Source: an uncultured Flavobacteriales bacterium (GTDB lineage: Bacteria > Bacteroidota > Bacteroidia > Flavobacteriales_D > Sanyastnellaceae). From it: a DNA stretch of 5,766 bases. Each line of letters begins with the position of its first letter. The first letter of the stretch is position 1. Below, in pieces: positions 1 to 5,766 of this stretch. The stretch lies in NCBI GenBank assembly GCA_913057815.1, contig CAJXOV010000169.1:1-5766 (forward strand), given 5' to 3'. The notes under the pieces are model-generated. The model was not told the DNA's origin and did not search any database. It saw only the letters and a program-made list of their open reading frames with translations. Made by a program: the position numbers and the translations under genes.

Positions 1-48
1 CGAGATGTAGAGAGGTCTCGTGGGCTCGGAGATGTGTATAAGAGACAG
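1..48 (+). other. Untrimmed Nextera i7 adapter (technical sequence)
   Basis: This is synthetic library sequence. Bases 1-6 match the end of the Illumina P7 tail, 7-14 (gtagagag) look like an i7 index, 15-29 (gtctcgtgggctcgg) are the Nextera read-2 adapter, and 30-48 (agatgtgtataagagacag) are the 19-bp Tn5 mosaic end used for tagmentation. Genomic DNA begins at 49. The mosaic end should not be read as a natural Tn5 insertion, because the flanking bases are adapter and not IS50. Confidence 0.98.
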
Positions 49-188
49 ACATACGCTTTAGATGCTGGAGTAGATGCTGATGGTTTTTCGGGAATACATC
101 CTTCTTCTTGAGCGCTTAGTGAAAAACCAAGCCCTAAAAAGGAAATCAAAACTAGAGCTCTGAATAATGAACTAAGTCTTCTTGTCAT
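49..188 (-). CDS. Exported TPM-domain (YgcG-like) protein, N-terminal part only
   Basis: The reading frame starts at ATG 188-186 and runs without a stop to the adapter at 49, giving 46 complete codons. It begins MTRRLSSLFRALVLISF: Arg at 3, 4 and 10, a hydrophobic core at about 11-24, and a likely signal-peptidase site after SLSA (residue 26, before Gln27). The mature start, EEGCIPEKPSA, resembles the short Ile-Pro-x-x-Pro lead-in common just before TPM domains of YgcG-type proteins, but the domain itself lies beyond the end of the genomic sequence. The start codon overlaps the end of the preceding TPM gene by 17 bases, which suggests translational coupling; a GGAG lies directly against the ATG. 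A lemA, soluble TPM, exported TPM order is common in Bacteroidota, and that order is the main support for the family call. The signal peptide is well supported; the family is inferred. Confidence 0.75.
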
Positions 189-621
189 CTCCGTAAGATA
201 TAGTGTTAGGTAGTTCATTGGTATCATCTTCTTGAATAGGAAAATGTGCCTTTAAATCAGTGCCGATGGAAAGAATAGCTTCTATGAGGCCTTCCTTAAA
301 TTTCTCTTCTTTAAAAGCTGCTCGCATTTCATCTTTCGTATTCTTCCAAAAACCTTTGGGAACTTTCTGATTTATGCCGGCATCTCCTATGATAGCAAAA
401 GTCTTATCCTCAACAGCCATATAGATCAATACTCCATTTCTACGCTCAGTTTTGTGCATTTCTAACTCCTCAAAAATCCAAGCCGTATGATCCAAAATCT
501 TTTCATCACACGTATTTTCTAAATGCACACGAATTTCTCCTGAAGTAACTTTTTCAGCTTCGTTTATAGCGTTTTCTATTTCCTCTCGTTCTTCTTCAGT
601 AAAGAAATCTCTAGCGCTCAT
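172..621 (-). CDS. TPM-domain protein, cytoplasmic, 149 aa
   Basis: This protein belongs to the TPM family (TLP18.3/Psb32/MOLO-1, formerly DUF477). Plant TLP18.3 has reported acid phosphatase activity, but the bacterial role is not settled. Family hallmarks fill the protein: FTEEEREEIENAI at 7-19, SGEIRVHLE at 27-35, MHKTERRNGVLIYMA at 55-69, FAIIGDAGIN at 75-84 with VPKGFW just after, and an acidic ELPNTISYGDD tail. There is no signal peptide or membrane segment, so it should act in the cytosol, unlike its exported neighbour. The ATG (621-619) directly follows the lemA stop codon (624-622) with no gap, and the 3' end overlaps the next TPM gene by 17 bases. This indicates a tightly coupled operon. 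The length is typical of the short, single-domain TPM proteins paired with LemA. Family assignment is confident; function is not. Confidence 0.95.
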   Translation of the reverse strand: MSARDFFTEEEREEIENAINEAEKVTSGEIRVHLENTCDEKILDHTAWIFEELEMHKTERRNGVLIYMAVEDKTFAIIGDAGINQKVPKGFWKNTKDEMRAAFKEEKFKEGLIEAILSIGTDLKAHFPIQEDDTNELPNTISYGDDKKT

Positions 622-1257
622 TTAGTCTGCGAAATTTACATCTGGTGCATCTTTAACCTCAGGATCAGCTGTGAATGGCTCTCGTTTAGCAAACTCTCCA
701 TCATCAGCCAGCATTCCTAATGCTTTAGATCGGAAAAATCCTCGTACATGAGAATTATAGTCTTTCACAGAAGCATTGTAATTCTCTCTAGATATAGCCA
801 CTCTATTCTCAGTTCCTTCTAGCTGAGTTTGAAGCATTTTAAAGTTTTCAGTAGATTTTATCTCTGGATAATTCTCCATTAAAAAGTTTCTACCTCTTCT
901 CATAGTTCCTATGATCGGAACTATCTGAGTTGGTGTTTCTGCTTGTTGAATTCCTTCTGAAATTTTATCGGTAAACTGCTCAGGAGAATAGCTTCCTGGA
1001 ACTATTCCTGCTCTGGCTTCTGTTACTCTTATCAGAATTTCTTTTTCATTCTCAGCGGCTCCTTTTACAGTAGCTACTAACTGAGGAATAAGATCGGCTC
1101 TTCGCTGATACTGGGCCTGTACATCTGCCCATTCCTGATCTACAGTTTCTTGTCGAACTACTGCTCCATCATAGATACTTCCTCCCCAGAGGTAAAAGAT
1201 TAAAAAGAAGAGAAGAACTACGCCTGCAAGGCCTAGTAGCGGAAGAAATTTTTTCAT
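622..1257 (-). CDS. lemA: LemA family membrane protein
   Basis: LemA proteins are small membrane-anchored helical proteins of unclear function. The name comes from a Listeria antigen and is unrelated to the LemA/GacS sensor kinase. The 211-residue product starts MKKFLPLLGLAG with one hydrophobic segment at about 5-24, acting as an uncleaved anchor or signal. The LemA signature follows: VDQEWADVQAQYQRRADLIP at 39-58, continuing LVATVKGAA and then EILIRVTEARAG. The C-terminal half carries ENYPEIKSTENF, LEGTENRVAISRENYN and VKDYNSHVRGF, the usual second conserved block. Length is slightly above the common ~190 residues because of the polar tail ending PDVNFAD. It is the first gene of the cluster with two TPM genes. 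Its start lies only 11 bases from the T-tract of the htpG terminator, so no ordinary promoter fits between the two; transcription may come from readthrough or from a start within or upstream of that hairpin. Confidence 0.96.
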   Translation of the reverse strand: MKKFLPLLGLAGVVLLFFLIFYLWGGSIYDGAVVRQETVDQEWADVQAQYQRRADLIPQLVATVKGAAENEKEILIRVTEARAGIVPGSYSPEQFTDKISEGIQQAETPTQIVPIIGTMRRGRNFLMENYPEIKSTENFKMLQTQLEGTENRVAISRENYNASVKDYNSHVRGFFRSKALGMLADDGEFAKREPFTADPEVKDAPDVNFAD

Positions 1258-1268
1258 TGTTGGTTTTT

Positions 1269-1313
1269 AAAAATAAAAGCGTTGCAATAAAGGATTCAAC
1301 CTCATTGCAACGC
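1269..1313 (-). terminator. Intrinsic terminator of htpG
   Basis: Read on the minus strand, GCGTTGCAAT (1313-1304) pairs perfectly with ATTGCAACGC (1288-1279), a 10-bp stem. Inside it an AGG/CCT extension (1302-1300 with 1293-1291) closes a six-base loop after a small 1x2 internal loop. The stem is followed at once by TTTTATTTTT (1278-1269). It lies 30 bases past the htpG stop codon, the expected place for a Rho-independent terminator. On the plus strand no comparable T-run follows directly, so it is a one-way signal. Confidence 0.88.
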
Positions 1314-1342
1314 CTTAAATATATCTATTTTTTACTTTATGC

Positions 1343-3247
1343 CTATTTTATCATTTCTACAGACCTAGAAACAAAGTCTGTAAGGTCCTCTCCCTTAAGT
1401 AATCCCTGAGCCAAAAGAGCCAAATCTACTGTCTGCTTAATTAAAGCTGAACGTGTAGAATCATCTTTTTCATCTAGAATTCTTCCTACCAAAGGATGGT
1501 TACCATTTACTACCAAGTTATACGTATCAGGCATAGCTCCGAACATTTGCATTCCACCACCGCCTCCGGTCATTTGCTGTTCTTTCATTCTTCTCATAAA
1601 CTCGCTTTGAGTTATAATCATAGGAGAATCTGAAGCTGACATGCTTTCTATCTGAACTACTAACTTTCCTTTATCCACCTCTCCTTCTATCATAGGCTTT
1701 AAAGATTCTATCTGCTCTGCAGAAAGTAAAGAAGGCTGCTCCTCATCTTTCTGTATAAGCTTATCAATAGTATCAGCATCTACTCTAGAAAACTGTACAT
1801 CAGTATGCTTGCTTTCAAGCTTACTCATTAAGTGACTAACTAACGGCCCTTCAAAATCTAATACTTCATATCCTTTATCTGTAGCTCTCTTCACGAATGA
1901 ATGTTGCTCTTTAGGGTCTGTAGTATAAAGAAGAATAGTTTTTCCGTCTTTGTTCTTTTGAGTTTCTTTTACTTTCTCGAAGTATTCTTCGAAAGTGTGG
2001 TATCCACCTGAAGTAGTTTTGTACATCGCAAATTTTTCTGCTTTGTCATAAAACTTATCGTCAGTTAACATTCCGTACTCAATGAATACTTTTACATCAT
2101 CCCATTTTTCTTCGAAATCTTTTCTGTCATTCTTAAACATAGAAGCCAACTTGTCAGCTACTTTTTTAGTAATGTGAGAAGATATTTTCTTTACATTTCC
2201 GTCTGCCTGTAAGTAAGACCTAGAAACGTTTAATGGAATATCTGGAGAATCTATAACTCCATGAAGAAGTGTAAGAAATTCAGGAACTATGTTTTCTACA
2301 TTATCAGTAATAAATACCTGATTACTGTAAAGGTTAATCTTGTTCTTCTGAACCTCTACGTTATTCTTAAGTTTCGGGAAATACAGAATTCCAGTTAAGT
2401 TAAACGGGTAATCTACATTTAGGTGAATCTGAAACAATGGATCTTCAAATTCCATTGGGTAAAGTTCTCTGTAAAATGAAGTGTAATCTTCATTAGAAAG
2501 ATCAGCTGGAGCTTTAGTCCAAGCTGGAGTAGGATTATTGATAATGTTATCTACCTCTTCAGAAATCTGCTTTACTTTATCGTCCTCTCCTTTTTCTCCT
2601 GATGGGTCATCAATCTGATTCGTTTGAGTTCCAAACTTTACTGGAACTGGTAAGAATTTACAGTACTTAGTTAAGATCCCTGAAATTCTTTGGTTTTCTA
2701 AAAACTCTAATGAATCATCAGCTATGTGAAGCACTATGTCTGTTCCTTTAGTCTTCTTAGTAGTTTCCTCCATAGTAAAATTAGGAGAACCATCACATAC
2801 CCATCTTACTGGAGTACTATTAGGTTTTTGGCTTTTAGAAATAATTTCTACTTCCTTAGCTACCATAAATGCTGAATAGAATCCTAAACCGAAATGTCCG
2901 ATAATAGAGTTCTTAGCATCTTCGTCTTTGTACTTATTCACGAACTCTTCTGCTCCAGAGAATGCTATTTGATTGATGTATTTATCTACTTCATCAGCAT
3001 CCATACCGATACCATTATCTCTAATAGTAAGAGTTTTAGCATCTTTATCTAAAATCACTTCTACTTTAAGCTTGTCTAGATCTGCTTTCATCTCTCCTAG
3101 CATACTCAGAGTTTTCATCTTCTGTGTAGCATCTACCGCATTAGAGACTAATTCTCTTAAGAATATCTCGTGGTCAGAGTAAAGGAATTGTTTGATAATC
3201 GGAAAGATGTTTTCCGTTGATACATTAATGTTACCTTCTTTTATCAT
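1343..3247 (-). CDS. htpG: Chaperone protein HtpG (Hsp90)
   Basis: This is bacterial Hsp90, the ATP-dependent cytosolic homodimeric chaperone that remodels client proteins with DnaK. At 634 residues it is close to E. coli HtpG (624). The N-terminal GHKL ATPase domain shows its motifs: ELVSNAVDA at 32-40 (catalytic Glu32, Mg-coordinating Asn36), DNGIGM at 77-82 and GHFGLGFYSAF at 117-127, with a later GTDIVLHI. The middle domain includes the WTKAPADLSNEDY region, a FNLTGILYFPK strand, and NIVPEFLTLLHGVIDSPDIPLNVSRSYLQ, which carries the conserved arginine contacting ATP. The C-terminal dimerisation domain has a glycine-rich TGGGGGMQMFGAMPDTYNLV insert typical of Bacteroidota homologues. As expected for bacteria there is no MEEVD tail. 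The start at 3247 gives the canonical N-terminus (GNINVSTENIFPIIKQFLYS). The gene is followed by its own terminator, and its upstream region has possible stress-promoter elements. Confidence 0.99.
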   Translation of the reverse strand: MIKEGNINVSTENIFPIIKQFLYSDHEIFLRELVSNAVDATQKMKTLSMLGEMKADLDKLKVEVILDKDAKTLTIRDNGIGMDADEVDKYINQIAFSGAEEFVNKYKDEDAKNSIIGHFGLGFYSAFMVAKEVEIISKSQKPNSTPVRWVCDGSPNFTMEETTKKTKGTDIVLHIADDSLEFLENQRISGILTKYCKFLPVPVKFGTQTNQIDDPSGEKGEDDKVKQISEEVDNIINNPTPAWTKAPADLSNEDYTSFYRELYPMEFEDPLFQIHLNVDYPFNLTGILYFPKLKNNVEVQKNKINLYSNQVFITDNVENIVPEFLTLLHGVIDSPDIPLNVSRSYLQADGNVKKISSHITKKVADKLASMFKNDRKDFEEKWDDVKVFIEYGMLTDDKFYDKAEKFAMYKTTSGGYHTFEEYFEKVKETQKNKDGKTILLYTTDPKEQHSFVKRATDKGYEVLDFEGPLVSHLMSKLESKHTDVQFSRVDADTIDKLIQKDEEQPSLLSAEQIESLKPMIEGEVDKGKLVVQIESMSASDSPMIITQSEFMRRMKEQQMTGGGGGMQMFGAMPDTYNLVVNGNHPLVGRILDEKDDSTRSALIKQTVDLALLAQGLLKGEDLTDFVSRSVEMIK

Positions 3248-3288
3248 GTTGATATAATATTGTTCTGTTTAAAACTGAAAAAGCTTTA

Positions 3289-3304
3289 GTCAATTAAAAT
3301 GCCA
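3289..3304 (-). promoter_or_regulatory. Possible sigma-54-like promoter of htpG
   Basis: The minus strand reads TGGCATTTTAATTGAC, compared with the sigma-54 consensus TGGCACG-N4-TTGCW. TGGCA and TTG match with the correct spacing, but the -12 GC is GA and the -24 CG is TT. A start about 12 bases downstream would give a leader of roughly 30 nt before the ATG at 3247, which is reasonable. No clear TAnnTTTG (the Bacteroidota housekeeping -7 box) is visible between here and the start codon. The imperfect -12 element keeps this a candidate only. Confidence 0.3.
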
Positions 3305-3313
3305 CGGAGCATA

Positions 3314-3384
3314 GTCTGACAAATTGCCTATTTATTTGCCTTTTATGCGTTGCAATGTCCGTTTTCATTGTAAAATTGTCAGAC
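3314..3384. promoter_or_regulatory. Widely spaced inverted repeat in the htpG/5-FCL divergent region
   Basis: GTCTGACAA (3314-3322) and its exact reverse complement TTGTCAGAC (3376-3384) are separated by 53 bases, 62 bp from arm to arm, about six helical turns. One arm lies 9 bases upstream of the sigma-54-like motif of htpG. The other ends one base before the ATG of the plus-strand gene. A 53-base loop makes an RNA hairpin unlikely, so paired operator half-sites for a regulator that loops the DNA, or for an enhancer-binding protein, fit better. The role is inferred from position and symmetry only. Confidence 0.4.
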
Positions 3385-3385
3385 C

Positions 3386-3931
3386 ATGACAAAAAATGAA
3401 GCCCGAAAAAAATATAAAGACATAAGGAACTTAATTTCAGAAGAATTAGTCGGTTTGGCTTCACTCTCTATTTGCAAACAACTTATAGACCTAGAATTAG
3501 CAGATAAAACAGTTCATGTTTTTCTTCCAATCAAAAGATTGAAGGAAGTTGATCTTTGGGAGTTCATAAACCATTGCTACGCTGAAAACATCACTGTATG
3601 TACTTCTGTTTCTGATTTTGAAAACCATACTATGAAAACAGTTCTGCTTAATCATGAAACAGAATTAAAGGAAAATGACTGGGGAATTCCAGAACCTGTA
3701 AATGGAAAGGAAATATCATCAAGGAATATCGACATAGTAGTAGTTCCACTTCTTTATGCTGATGGTAACGGGAACCGTGTAGGTTATGGCAAAGGATTTT
3801 ATGACAGATTTTTAGCTGATTGTAAAGCTGATGTTGAGAAAATTGGTGTGAATTTTTTCACTTCTAAAGAGGATATCACAGATGCTACTGATAAGGATAT
3901 TAGAATTGATCAATTAGTATTCGCCAAATAG
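3386..3931 (+). CDS. ygfA: 5-formyltetrahydrofolate cyclo-ligase (MTHFS)
   Basis: This cytosolic enzyme converts 5-formyltetrahydrofolate to 5,10-methenyltetrahydrofolate using ATP, returning a storage or inhibitory folate to one-carbon metabolism. The 181-residue length is typical. The N-terminal basic motif MTKNEARKKYKDIR (1-14) matches the family's K-x-x-x-R-x-x-x-x-x-x-R pattern that helps bind phosphate. WGIPEP at 99-104 is the conserved folate-site motif, and DIVVVPLLYADGNGNRVGYG (116-135) runs into the nucleotide-binding loop GYGKGFYDRFL at 133-143. No Shine-Dalgarno sequence is seen, as is usual in Bacteroidota; the ATG at 3386 sets the canonical N-terminus. It is divergent from htpG and followed by 111 bp with no obvious terminator before the next plus-strand gene. 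I see no functional tie to either neighbour. A promoter is not recognisable; one arm of the inverted repeat ends just before the start codon. Confidence 0.97.
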   Translation: MTKNEARKKYKDIRNLISEELVGLASLSICKQLIDLELADKTVHVFLPIKRLKEVDLWEFINHCYAENITVCTSVSDFENHTMKTVLLNHETELKENDWGIPEPVNGKEISSRNIDIVVVPLLYADGNGNRVGYGKGFYDRFLADCKADVEKIGVNFFTSKEDITDATDKDIRIDQLVFAK

Positions 3932-4042
3932 ACTCACCGTTAATCTACTCTTTATTAAAAAGATAACTATTTAAATTTCTCTCTACCCAAGTAAGTATAT
4001 TTTTTTTTCGTGATTAGGTCAGATAACTTAAAATCATAATTC

Positions 4043-5741
4043 ATGAAAAAATTTAGAAATATTTTAACTGCTTTTCTGGTGTTAGTTGCGCTAGGAGGCT
4101 ACGGACAAACCGATCTGGTTTGTGTAGAACTCTCCTTTGATGGAGAATCAATAATCCTTCCAATGTCCGCTGAGGAAGTAGATCAATTAGCTGACTCCGG
4201 TCTTGAATATGCTATAACTGATTGTCCAGATGATCTTGATTTTGGAGACGATTGGGGAAATGACTTTGGTGATGATTGGGAAGACGACTTCGATGGTGAT
4301 TTCGGAGATGATTTCGATGGAGATTTTGGTGACTTCGATGACTTTTCTTTTGACGAATTCATTTGCGTAGAAGTAACGGTAGAAGGAGAAACATGCATTA
4401 TTCCTGTTATGGAAGAAATGTTAGCTGATCTAGATTCTGAAGGTTTAGAATATACAGTAGTTGACTGTGAAGGTTTAATAGATTATGAAAATGATCTAGG
4501 TGACTGGGAAGATGATTTCGACTGGGACGAAGATTATGACTACGATGAAGATTTCGGAGATTGGGATGTTGATTACGATTTCGAAGATTTTATCTGTGTG
4601 GAACTTACACTTGAAGGAGAGGTTTGTATTATTCCAGTAGTAGAAGAAATGCTAGCTGATTTAGATGCTGAAGGATTAGAATACTCAGTAGTAGACTGTG
4701 ATGGTTTAGGAGATTATGATGGCAACTTCGGAGATGATTTCGGTGATTGGGATGAAGATTTCGACTGGGATGAAGATTATGACTACGATGAAGATTTCGG
4801 AGATTGGGACATTGATTATGACTACGAGGATTTCATTTGTGTGGAACTTACTGTTGAAGGAGAGACTTGTATAATTCCTGTAATTGAAGAAATGTTAGCT
4901 GATTTAGATGCTGAAGGATTAGAGTATTCAGTGGTTGACTGTGACGGTTTAGGAGATTATGACGACAATTACGGTGATGACTTCGGTGATTGGGACAATG
5001 ATTTCGGAGACTGGGATGAAGATTTCGATTGGGATGAAGACTTTGATTTCGGTGATTGGGATAACGAAGGAGATTATGGAGATGACTTTGGTGATTTCAC
5101 AACTGAAGATTTTATCTGTGTAGAAGTTACTTATGAAGGGCAAGTATGTGTAATTCCGATGTTGGAAGAGATGTTGTCTGATTTAGATTCTGAAGGTACT
5201 GAGTATACTATTGTAGACTGTGATGGAGTTTTTGACTACGAAGATTATTTAGGAGATTGGGATGATGAAGATTTCGGTGACTGGGATTTTGGAGATATCG
5301 AAGATTTTGACTTCGGTACCAGCATATGTGTAGAAATTTCAGATCAAGGAGAGTCTATCGTTATTTCTATTCCTGAGGAAATGCTAGAGCTTTTAGAGTT
5401 AGAAGGTTTAGATTTTGAAGTAGTAGACTGTGATAGTTTAGAAGGATCAGATTCTAACGAAGGTGGAATCCAGGAGTTCAACAATTACGGAATTTCAGAA
5501 TTAGCTGTATATCCTAACCCAGTAGAAGGTGATGGTATAGTTACAGTGAACTTCAACTCTGAAGGTGAATTTATTTCAAGAGTTTCTGTTACTAATCAAT
5601 TAGGACAAGTAATTAGCAACTTTAAGTCTAACACCAACGAAGGAAATAATAATATTCAAATTGATAGTTCAATTCTAGAGACAGGAGTTTACTTCATATC
5701 TATTGAGAACGGAAAGAATATTTACACCGAAAGAGTAATAG
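4043..5741 (+). CDS. Secreted acidic repeat protein with T9SS sorting domain; 3' end cut off
   Basis: The frame opens at ATG 4043 and stays open for 566 codons until the adapter at 5742, so no stop is present in genomic DNA. Residues 1-21 (MKKFRNILTAFLVLVALGGY plus Gly21) form a signal peptide, probably cleaved before Gln22. Residues 25-463 hold six 37-residue modules split by five acidic linkers (62-105, 143-182, 220-263, 301-356, 394-426). In linker two, 22 of 40 residues are Asp/Glu and 10 are Phe/Trp/Tyr. Residues about 485-566 are a type-A T9SS C-terminal domain: LAVYPNPVEGDG, VSVTNQLGQVIS, and ILETGVYFISIENGKNIYTE with RVI last. That ending suggests only a few residues are lost. No Lys, Arg or His occurs from 6 to 512. 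The product should be exported by Sec, then T9SS, to the surface or medium. I do not recognise a characterised family; cation binding, adhesion or matrix roles are guesses. The start lacks a Shine-Dalgarno sequence. Confidence 0.93.
4115..5431 (+). repeat. Six 37-residue protein modules in the secreted acidic protein
   Basis: The modules lie at 4115-4225, 4358-4468, 4589-4699, 4832-4942, 5111-5221 and 5321-5431 (residues 25-61, 106-142, 183-219, 264-300, 357-393, 427-463). All are exactly 37 residues and align without gaps. Invariant positions are Cys3, Val4, Glu5, Gly10, Glu20, Leu25, Gly29, Asp36 and Cys37. The central four add Cys13 (Ile in the first and last). A typical module starts FICVELTVEGETCIIPV, continues EEMLADLDAEGLEY and ends VVDC. 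The pattern suggests strand, turn, strand, helix, strand, with the first and last cysteines placed for a disulfide; this fold is inferred. Modules three and four share 34 of 37 residues, while the outermost modules are most diverged. Confidence 0.93.
4514..4809 (+). repeat. Near-identical direct repeat pair, 243-bp offset
   Basis: Bases 4514-4566 recur at 4757-4809 with one mismatch (4528 versus 4771). The last 38 bases of each copy are identical. The offset of 243 bp is exactly 81 codons, one module plus one linker, so the reading frame is kept. It encodes the shared linker core FDWDEDYDYDEDFGDWD. This is the clearest trace of recent in-frame duplication within the array, and a possible site of copy-number change by recombination or slippage, or of assembly collapse. 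Confidence 0.9.
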
Positions 5742-5766
5742 CTGTCTCTTATACACATCTCCGAGC
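5742..5766 (-). other. Untrimmed Nextera adapter at right end (technical sequence)
   Basis: Bases 5742-5760 (ctgtctcttatacacatct) are the reverse complement of the Tn5 mosaic end, and 5761-5766 (ccgagc) begin the reverse complement of the Nextera read-2 adapter. The frame of the secreted acidic protein reads into it and would yield false residues (VSYTHL) after Ile566 if it were not trimmed. Confidence 0.97.

Follow-up and report, generated by a model that had tools for sequence, protein, structure and literature searches.

The window analysed here is the whole 5,766-nucleotide contig CAJXOV010000169.1 from an uncultured Flavobacteriales bacterium (family Sanyastnellaceae; assembly GCA_913057815.1). 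At its right-hand end lies a gene for a repeat protein, hereafter the array protein, which appears to string degenerate Kazal modules on acidic-aromatic linkers ahead of a type IX secretion system (T9SS) sorting domain. We propose that this protein is exported and likely forms a surface or matrix scaffold, a reading to which we assign a probability of roughly 0.55. An inhibitor fold would then apparently have been stripped, bond by bond, of its inhibitory parts and put to new use as a spacer within an exported polymer of extreme acidity.

The open frame runs from position 4043 to the contig end without a stop codon, and 566 residues are readable to position 5740. It comprises a signal-peptide-like start, six modules with five linkers between them, and a tail of T9SS type A, arranged in the window as follows.

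4043..4108, + strand: signal-peptide-like N-terminus, residues 1-22, judged by eye
4115..4225, + strand: module 1, residues 25-61, two Cys; directly after the signal peptide, with no space for the Kazal cysteines C1 and C2
4226..4357, + strand: linker 1, 44 residues, acidic-aromatic
4358..4468, + strand: module 2, residues 106-142, Cys 3, 13, and 37
4469..4588, + strand: linker 2, 40 residues, acidic-aromatic
4589..4699, + strand: module 3, residues 183-219, Cys 3, 13, and 37; modelled alone and together with module 4
4700..4831, + strand: linker 3, 44 residues, acidic-aromatic, predicted local distance difference test (pLDDT) score about 40
4832..4942, + strand: module 4, residues 264-300, Cys 3, 13, and 37
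4943..5110, + strand: linker 4, 56 residues, acidic-aromatic
5111..5221, + strand: module 5, residues 357-393, Cys 3, 13, and 37
5222..5320, + strand: linker 5, 33 residues, acidic-aromatic
5321..5431, + strand: module 6, residues 427-463, two Cys; aligns with the Kazal-like module of a paralogue on contig C38 of the same genome (G000)
5507..5740, + strand: T9SS type A sorting domain, residues 489-566, cut by the contig end (PF18962, TIGR04183)

A preliminary description of this DNA, made from the letters alone, had named a signal peptide and a C-terminal T9SS sorting domain, and both were borne out. The tail passes the curated cut-offs of PF18962 (46.6 bits, cut-off 27, E 4e-12) and TIGR04183 (45.7 bits, cut-off 23, E 5e-12), and the same genome holds a full-length gene for the SprA translocon (TIGR04189, 2321 bits, positions 3-2318 of 2319). 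Since the TIGR04183 match reaches position 70 of 72, little of the tail is missing. The signal-peptide-like start at residues 1-22 was recognised by eye, without a predictor. On these sequence features, export of the array protein by the T9SS is very probable. The protein resembles T9SS type A cargo in combining such a start with a sorting domain above the cut-off, and differs in that no enzyme or known adhesin domain was found in it with Pfam and NCBIfam.

The six fixed modules of the preliminary description were recovered at the residues listed above, each exactly 37 residues long, with 9 of 37 columns invariant. Modules 2-5 carry a third Cys at position 13, which modules 1 and 6 lack (a correction to the preliminary description) and for which no counterpart was found in the modules of relatives. 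In all 15 module pairs, third-position codon changes equalled or exceeded first-position changes and exceeded second-position changes. The nonsynonymous rate (dN) was below the synonymous rate (dS) in all 11 computable pairs, dS being saturated in the remaining four of the 15, so the modules look to be under selection at the protein level. Structure prediction gave a strand-strand-helix-strand fold with a mean pLDDT of 86, in keeping with the small folded modules anticipated earlier.

The linkers agreed with their earlier characterisation as dominated by Asp/Glu and Phe/Trp/Tyr. Over the 217 residues of the five linkers, Asp accounts for 41.5%, Glu for 8.8%, and Phe, Tyr, and Trp together for 25.9%, with no Lys, Arg, or His. 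Successive aromatic residues are spaced 2, 3, or 4 residues apart in 47 of 51 steps. Residues 23-470 (448 residues) contain no Lys, Arg, or His at all, giving a computed net charge of about -172 and an isoelectric point of 4.05. Disorder is predicted for the linkers, with a pLDDT of about 40 in a model of modules 3 and 4 joined by linker 3.

Direct searches for the module or the whole protein gave no recognisable relative. With Pfam and NCBIfam, the passing matches of the array protein were the tail and related T9SS models only; Pfam rows for RimM, endonuclease VII, and DUF2612 contained no stretch that passes alone. A whole-protein search of a 5.8-billion set, which relied on shared five-residue words drawn largely from the linkers, scored 7993 candidates and returned none at E 1e-3, and a module-only search of the same set found no candidate with three five-residue words in common. 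The module profile gave only chance-like matches beyond its own six copies in 114 genomes of the family and 399 of the order; those read as chance included an unrelated 749-residue protein, DnaG, and a 27-residue frame. A module pattern run over a set of genome contigs hit 76 stretches, none of them confirmed. Searched against PDB sequences, the module profile retrieved designed helical proteins in which no single stretch passes, together with a few entries at E 0.9 to 1.1; a glutaredoxin match (E 0.19) was rejected as a chance helix-strand likeness.

Relatives emerged through the linker. It was searched as a DNA pattern for Asp-Phe/Tyr-Gly-Asp-Trp-Asp in the 114 family genomes and was found in six, seven times in the genome of the window and once in each of five others, with no hit in the backward control. 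In three of these five the motif sits in unrelated proteins. G043 and G041 encode T9SS-tailed proteins with the same linker type and with six copies and one copy, respectively, of a six-Cys module of Kazal layout. The only Pfam family hit among these seven modules was Kazal_2, matched below threshold by one of them (E 0.076). With their profile, matches at E 0.1 came up in 15 of the 114 family genomes, several being weak; they include arrays in G046, G048, G028, and G044, and the G046 array linker contains WGDDWGDDWGDDW. The arrays of G043, G046, G048, and G028 come from genomes of the same bacterial family and resemble the array protein in their beads, their T9SS tail, and their linkers, in which Asp and Trp/Phe/Tyr or Gly abound and, where counted, Lys, Arg, and His do not occur. 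They differ in having six Cys per module and in standing before a sigma gene, whereas the array modules have two or three Cys and the sequence here stops before any downstream gene.

At E 1e-4, a profile of 26 relatives' modules found matches in 35 of the 399 order genomes, 34 being members of the same family; many of the matches lie in long proteins that were not read. At E 1, five of the 26 modules matched Kazal_2 and one matched Kazal_1, all below cut-off. Kazal_2 itself is widespread in the family (109 of 114 genomes matched, 92 above cut-off; controls 0 of 14). Several of the family's Kazal_2 proteins that were read have T9SS tails.

The closest relative of the array protein is the C38 paralogue, which carries one six-Cys Kazal-like module. 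BLASTP aligns the two in one continuous block that extends from module 6 through the whole tail (36% over 165 residues; E 3e-13, calculated for this single comparison), and in it Cys 3 and Cys 37 face the third and sixth Cys of the C38 module. A gene of the C38 type was the best tail match, besides the array gene itself, in all four genomes of the genus. Profile-profile comparisons then lead stepwise to Kazal domains. Against seven modules of the genus, the six array modules gave E 5e-7, a score that none of 500 column shuffles reached; against a 51-module set that includes the genus modules they gave E 9e-5 (0 of 150 shuffles). The genus modules matched the G043/G041 modules at E 2e-5 (0/150), and the 51-module set matched ten canonical Kazal domains of the family at E 1e-3 (0/150), as did the G043/G041 modules at E 4e-4, a comparison made without shuffles. 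A negative-control repeat from the same proteins matched neither the array protein nor the genus, canonical, or G014 modules. Among shuffled-module decoys the genus HMM (hidden Markov model) stood out, at 12.9 bits and 0 of 2000.

Several results weigh against this placement. The Kazal models of Pfam match neither the array protein nor a single module, and the one-step profile comparison with canonical Kazal domains fails for the array modules, as it does for the genus modules and for those of G014. The array modules match the G043/G041 modules weakly (E 0.0027), and the G014 modules weakly too (4 of 200 shuffles as high). The other two HMMs did not stand out among the shuffled-module decoys (67 and 36 of 2000). 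The Kazal fold has one helix and a three-stranded antiparallel sheet; for the predicted strand-strand-helix-strand module the first PDB match was the Kazal inhibitor greglin, a weak hit tied with an intein, and greglin was not among the 50 of 189 Foldseek matches listed in a further structure search. The module could on this account be an unrelated small strand-strand-helix-strand domain that is Kazal-like by convergence, as the failure of every one-step comparison and the tie with an intein would allow. We consider this unlikely in view of the continuous alignment of module 6 and the tail with the C38 paralogue and of the profile step to the genus modules, unmatched in 500 shuffles. Because of that alignment and the stepwise profile matches, we place the modules as likely degenerate Kazal domains, and regard their Kazal descent, judged from sequence, as highly probable.

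The preliminary description could not match the module to a named family, and this stands for direct comparison with Pfam, NCBIfam, and the protein set; through intermediates the module is now placed. It had also stated that a strong match to a characterised family would count against it, and such a link did arise in part, by way of the paralogue and the family relatives and not directly. Rather than a new fold, the module is likely a Kazal domain in stripped and reversed form.

The cysteines show in what sense the form is reversed. Canonical Kazal domains pair C1-C5, C2-C4, and C3-C6, and in atypical ones C3 and C6 are missing and the loop-holding bonds remain (PMC6950245). All six array modules keep equivalents of C3 (position 3) and C6 (position 37) and lack C1, C2, C4, and C5, the opposite of the loss described there. 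In place of the usual six Cys there are two in modules 1 and 6 and three in modules 2-5, and where the reactive loop would be clamped between C2 and C3 there is no C2 and an acidic linker. Compared with the Kazal-type domain (PF07648, PF00050; greglin as a non-classical case), the array modules share the predicted order of strands and helix, the C3 and C6 equivalents, and the stepwise profile link; they differ from it in the four absent cysteines, in the replacement of the loop by a linker, and in going unrecognised by Pfam.

Intermediate stages of this loss occur among relatives. Of twelve array or single-module proteins counted, ten have six-Cys modules, by spacing pattern. The eleventh, in G014 (L181, 663 residues), joins one six-Cys and nine four-Cys Kazal-like modules in one protein, and its four-Cys profile matches that of G043/G041 at E 7e-8 (0 of 200 shuffles). 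The four-Cys modules lack C5 and one of C1/C2; we infer that the latter is C1, the bonded partner of C5. From the Kazal pairing one would expect cysteines to be lost together with their bonded partners. In modules 2-5 the C4 place, two residues after a Pro, is occupied by Met, Val, Ile, or Leu. Between this Pro and the final Cys these modules have about four more residues than those of G014. This natural six-, four-, and two-Cys series offers a means to study what the Kazal fold needs to stand.

Kazal descent of the modules, together with Kazal_2 matches in 109 of the 114 family genomes, might suggest that the array protein still functions as a multi-headed protease inhibitor, its reactive loop reshaped, and shields the cell surface. 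We regard this as very unlikely, as none of the six modules has C1, C2, C4, or C5, the loop segment is an acidic linker, and module 1 begins directly after the signal peptide. Published atypical Kazal domains drop C3 and C6 and keep the loop-holding bonds (PMC6950245). With the loop-clamping Cys absent and the loop segment turned into acidic linker, protease inhibition has likely been lost.

What the scaffold reading would leave of the Kazal domain is a compact bead, its ends stapled probably by a single 3-37 disulphide equivalent to the C3-C6 pair, carried by linkers that are strongly negative and, by prediction, disordered. The two bonds holding the inhibitory loop in place (C1-C5 and C2-C4) would be gone, with the loop segment now forming part of the acidic linker. 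The linkers may be the working part: their Asp side chains could bind divalent cations or basic partners, and the closely spaced Phe, Trp, and Tyr could act as stickers that the charge keeps exposed. Cation binding had been suggested in the preliminary description as well, alongside adhesion or condensation as possible roles. Acidic residues are known to keep aromatic ones exposed in acidic activation domains. In modules 2-5, the position-13 Cys might also link one chain to another. Cation bridging and aromatic contacts would together suit a scaffold or coat, and we give a scaffold or binding role of the array protein an even chance. A simpler possibility is an acidic protein for cation storage or mineral binding, with charge alone mattering and the beads passive. 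The charge of about -172 over 448 residues without a basic residue would fit it; the regular aromatic spacing and the selected modules would be left unexplained, and no known calcium-binding repeat scored above the Pfam cut-off in the array protein, which makes this quite unlikely.

The neighbourhood of the relatives points to a further possibility. Of 15 relatives' loci scanned with tblastn, a set that excludes those found by the 26-module search of the order genomes, 12 have an ECF (extracytoplasmic function) sigma gene as their immediate downstream neighbour in the same orientation: G000-C38, G001, G002, G003, G028, G041, G042, G043, G044, G046, G048, and G077. The scan found no sigma gene beside the G014 array, none within the piece covered for G080 and for a second G041 protein, and none in the window, where the sequence ends inside the array gene. 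In G043, G046, G028, and G000 the next protein has one hydrophobic segment and a long polar stretch. Three of these four match an outer-membrane barrel (E 0.0035, 0.0079, and 4.6e-8, only the last above cut-off); the G000 protein gave no barrel match and is 20% identical to the G043 protein (E 8e-9). A lipoprotein-like gene without a Pfam match follows in all four. The published account of Dma anti-sigma factors, encoded next to ECF21 sigma genes, gives the same domain order (PMC13088901), a likeness that concerns the order of domains and genes. The array relatives thus resemble the Das-Dma operons of Bacteroides in preceding an ECF sigma gene and, where examined, a transmembrane-tether-barrel-like protein. 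They differ in their leading gene, since the available part of that account does not describe a T9SS Kazal-like array in this place (PMC13088901), and the tie is seen in relatives of the array gene.

The array protein might accordingly be pictured as an outside partner or output of such a system, in which a T9SS-secreted array meets the anti-sigma barrel and reports the state of the cell coat. By analogy with the Das-Dma systems, the place of the relatives before a same-strand ECF sigma gene in 12 of 15 loci, the following protein with its transmembrane segment and polar stretch (barrel match in three of four, the Dma domain order as published in PMC13088901), and the cassette beside the C38 paralogue in the same genome would favour it. 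The downstream side of the array gene is cut off, the upstream gene is 5-FCL, the missing 3' end was not found on other contigs of the genome that carry related sigma genes, and the G014 array has no adjoining sigma gene; for the array protein we therefore hold this role doubtful. A tie between a T9SS cargo family and ECF sigma/dual-membrane anti-sigma cassettes was unexpected, and it is directly testable in a cultivable relative. To our knowledge, the outside signal of these cassettes is unsettled. In the searches made of open-licence literature, neither bacterial Kazal protease inhibitors nor T9SS-linked Kazal arrays were found; the one article there that mentions Kazal together with type IX secretion deals, to judge by its title, with enzymes of P. 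gingivalis.

Kazal-like T9SS genes before an ECF sigma gene were located at L219 7461-12015, L218 8008-13022, L222 4432-9410, L220 4642-9388, and L249 3-3669, and further on L009, L010, L011, L164, L165, L166, and L168. In G003 (L011) the Kazal-like T9SS gene is split into two frames. L120 30-1301 (G041) and L166 1330-2664 (G042) each encode a protein in which one Kazal-like module precedes long stretches rich in Asp and Trp, with TDSTWT and LDSLL repeats, and then a C-terminal tail; the Pfam test for a T9SS tail covered L120.

Both ends of the window consist of adapter, which we take to be Nextera, and genomic sequence spans 49-5741 only.

1..48: adapter at the contig start, not genomic, identified from its sequence; mosaic end at 30-48, minus strand
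5742..5766: adapter at the contig end, not genomic, identified from its sequence

The protein is known to residue 566, and as adapter begins at 5742, the stop codon of the array gene and its downstream genes are missing. Of the extent 4043..5741 first given for the gene, the frame start at 4043 stands, whereas 5741 marks the end of the genomic sequence and not of the gene. The same adapter lies at the ends of contigs L243, L245, L246, and L248 of this genome. Frames that run into contig ends where it was left in place carry false residues.

The array module was not found with its profile in three congeners or in the other family genomes searched, so the array gene is, on the genomes covered, accessory at the level of the species; the wider gene family to which it belongs is not restricted in this way. 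The preliminary description had made conservation in related genomes a further check; the outcome is divided, with the array gene itself not found in the three congeners and the wider family found. The upstream gene, 5-FCL, is present in G001 and G002 and was not found in G003. G001 and G002 keep HtpG and 5-FCL without the array gene, and other genes follow there, by our reading MauG/peroxidase-like and enoyl-CoA hydratase-like. Beside 5-FCL in G001 (L037 7535-10400), related small secreted proteins, again by our reading, surround a sigma-like gene, and the first of them has a T9SS-like tail.
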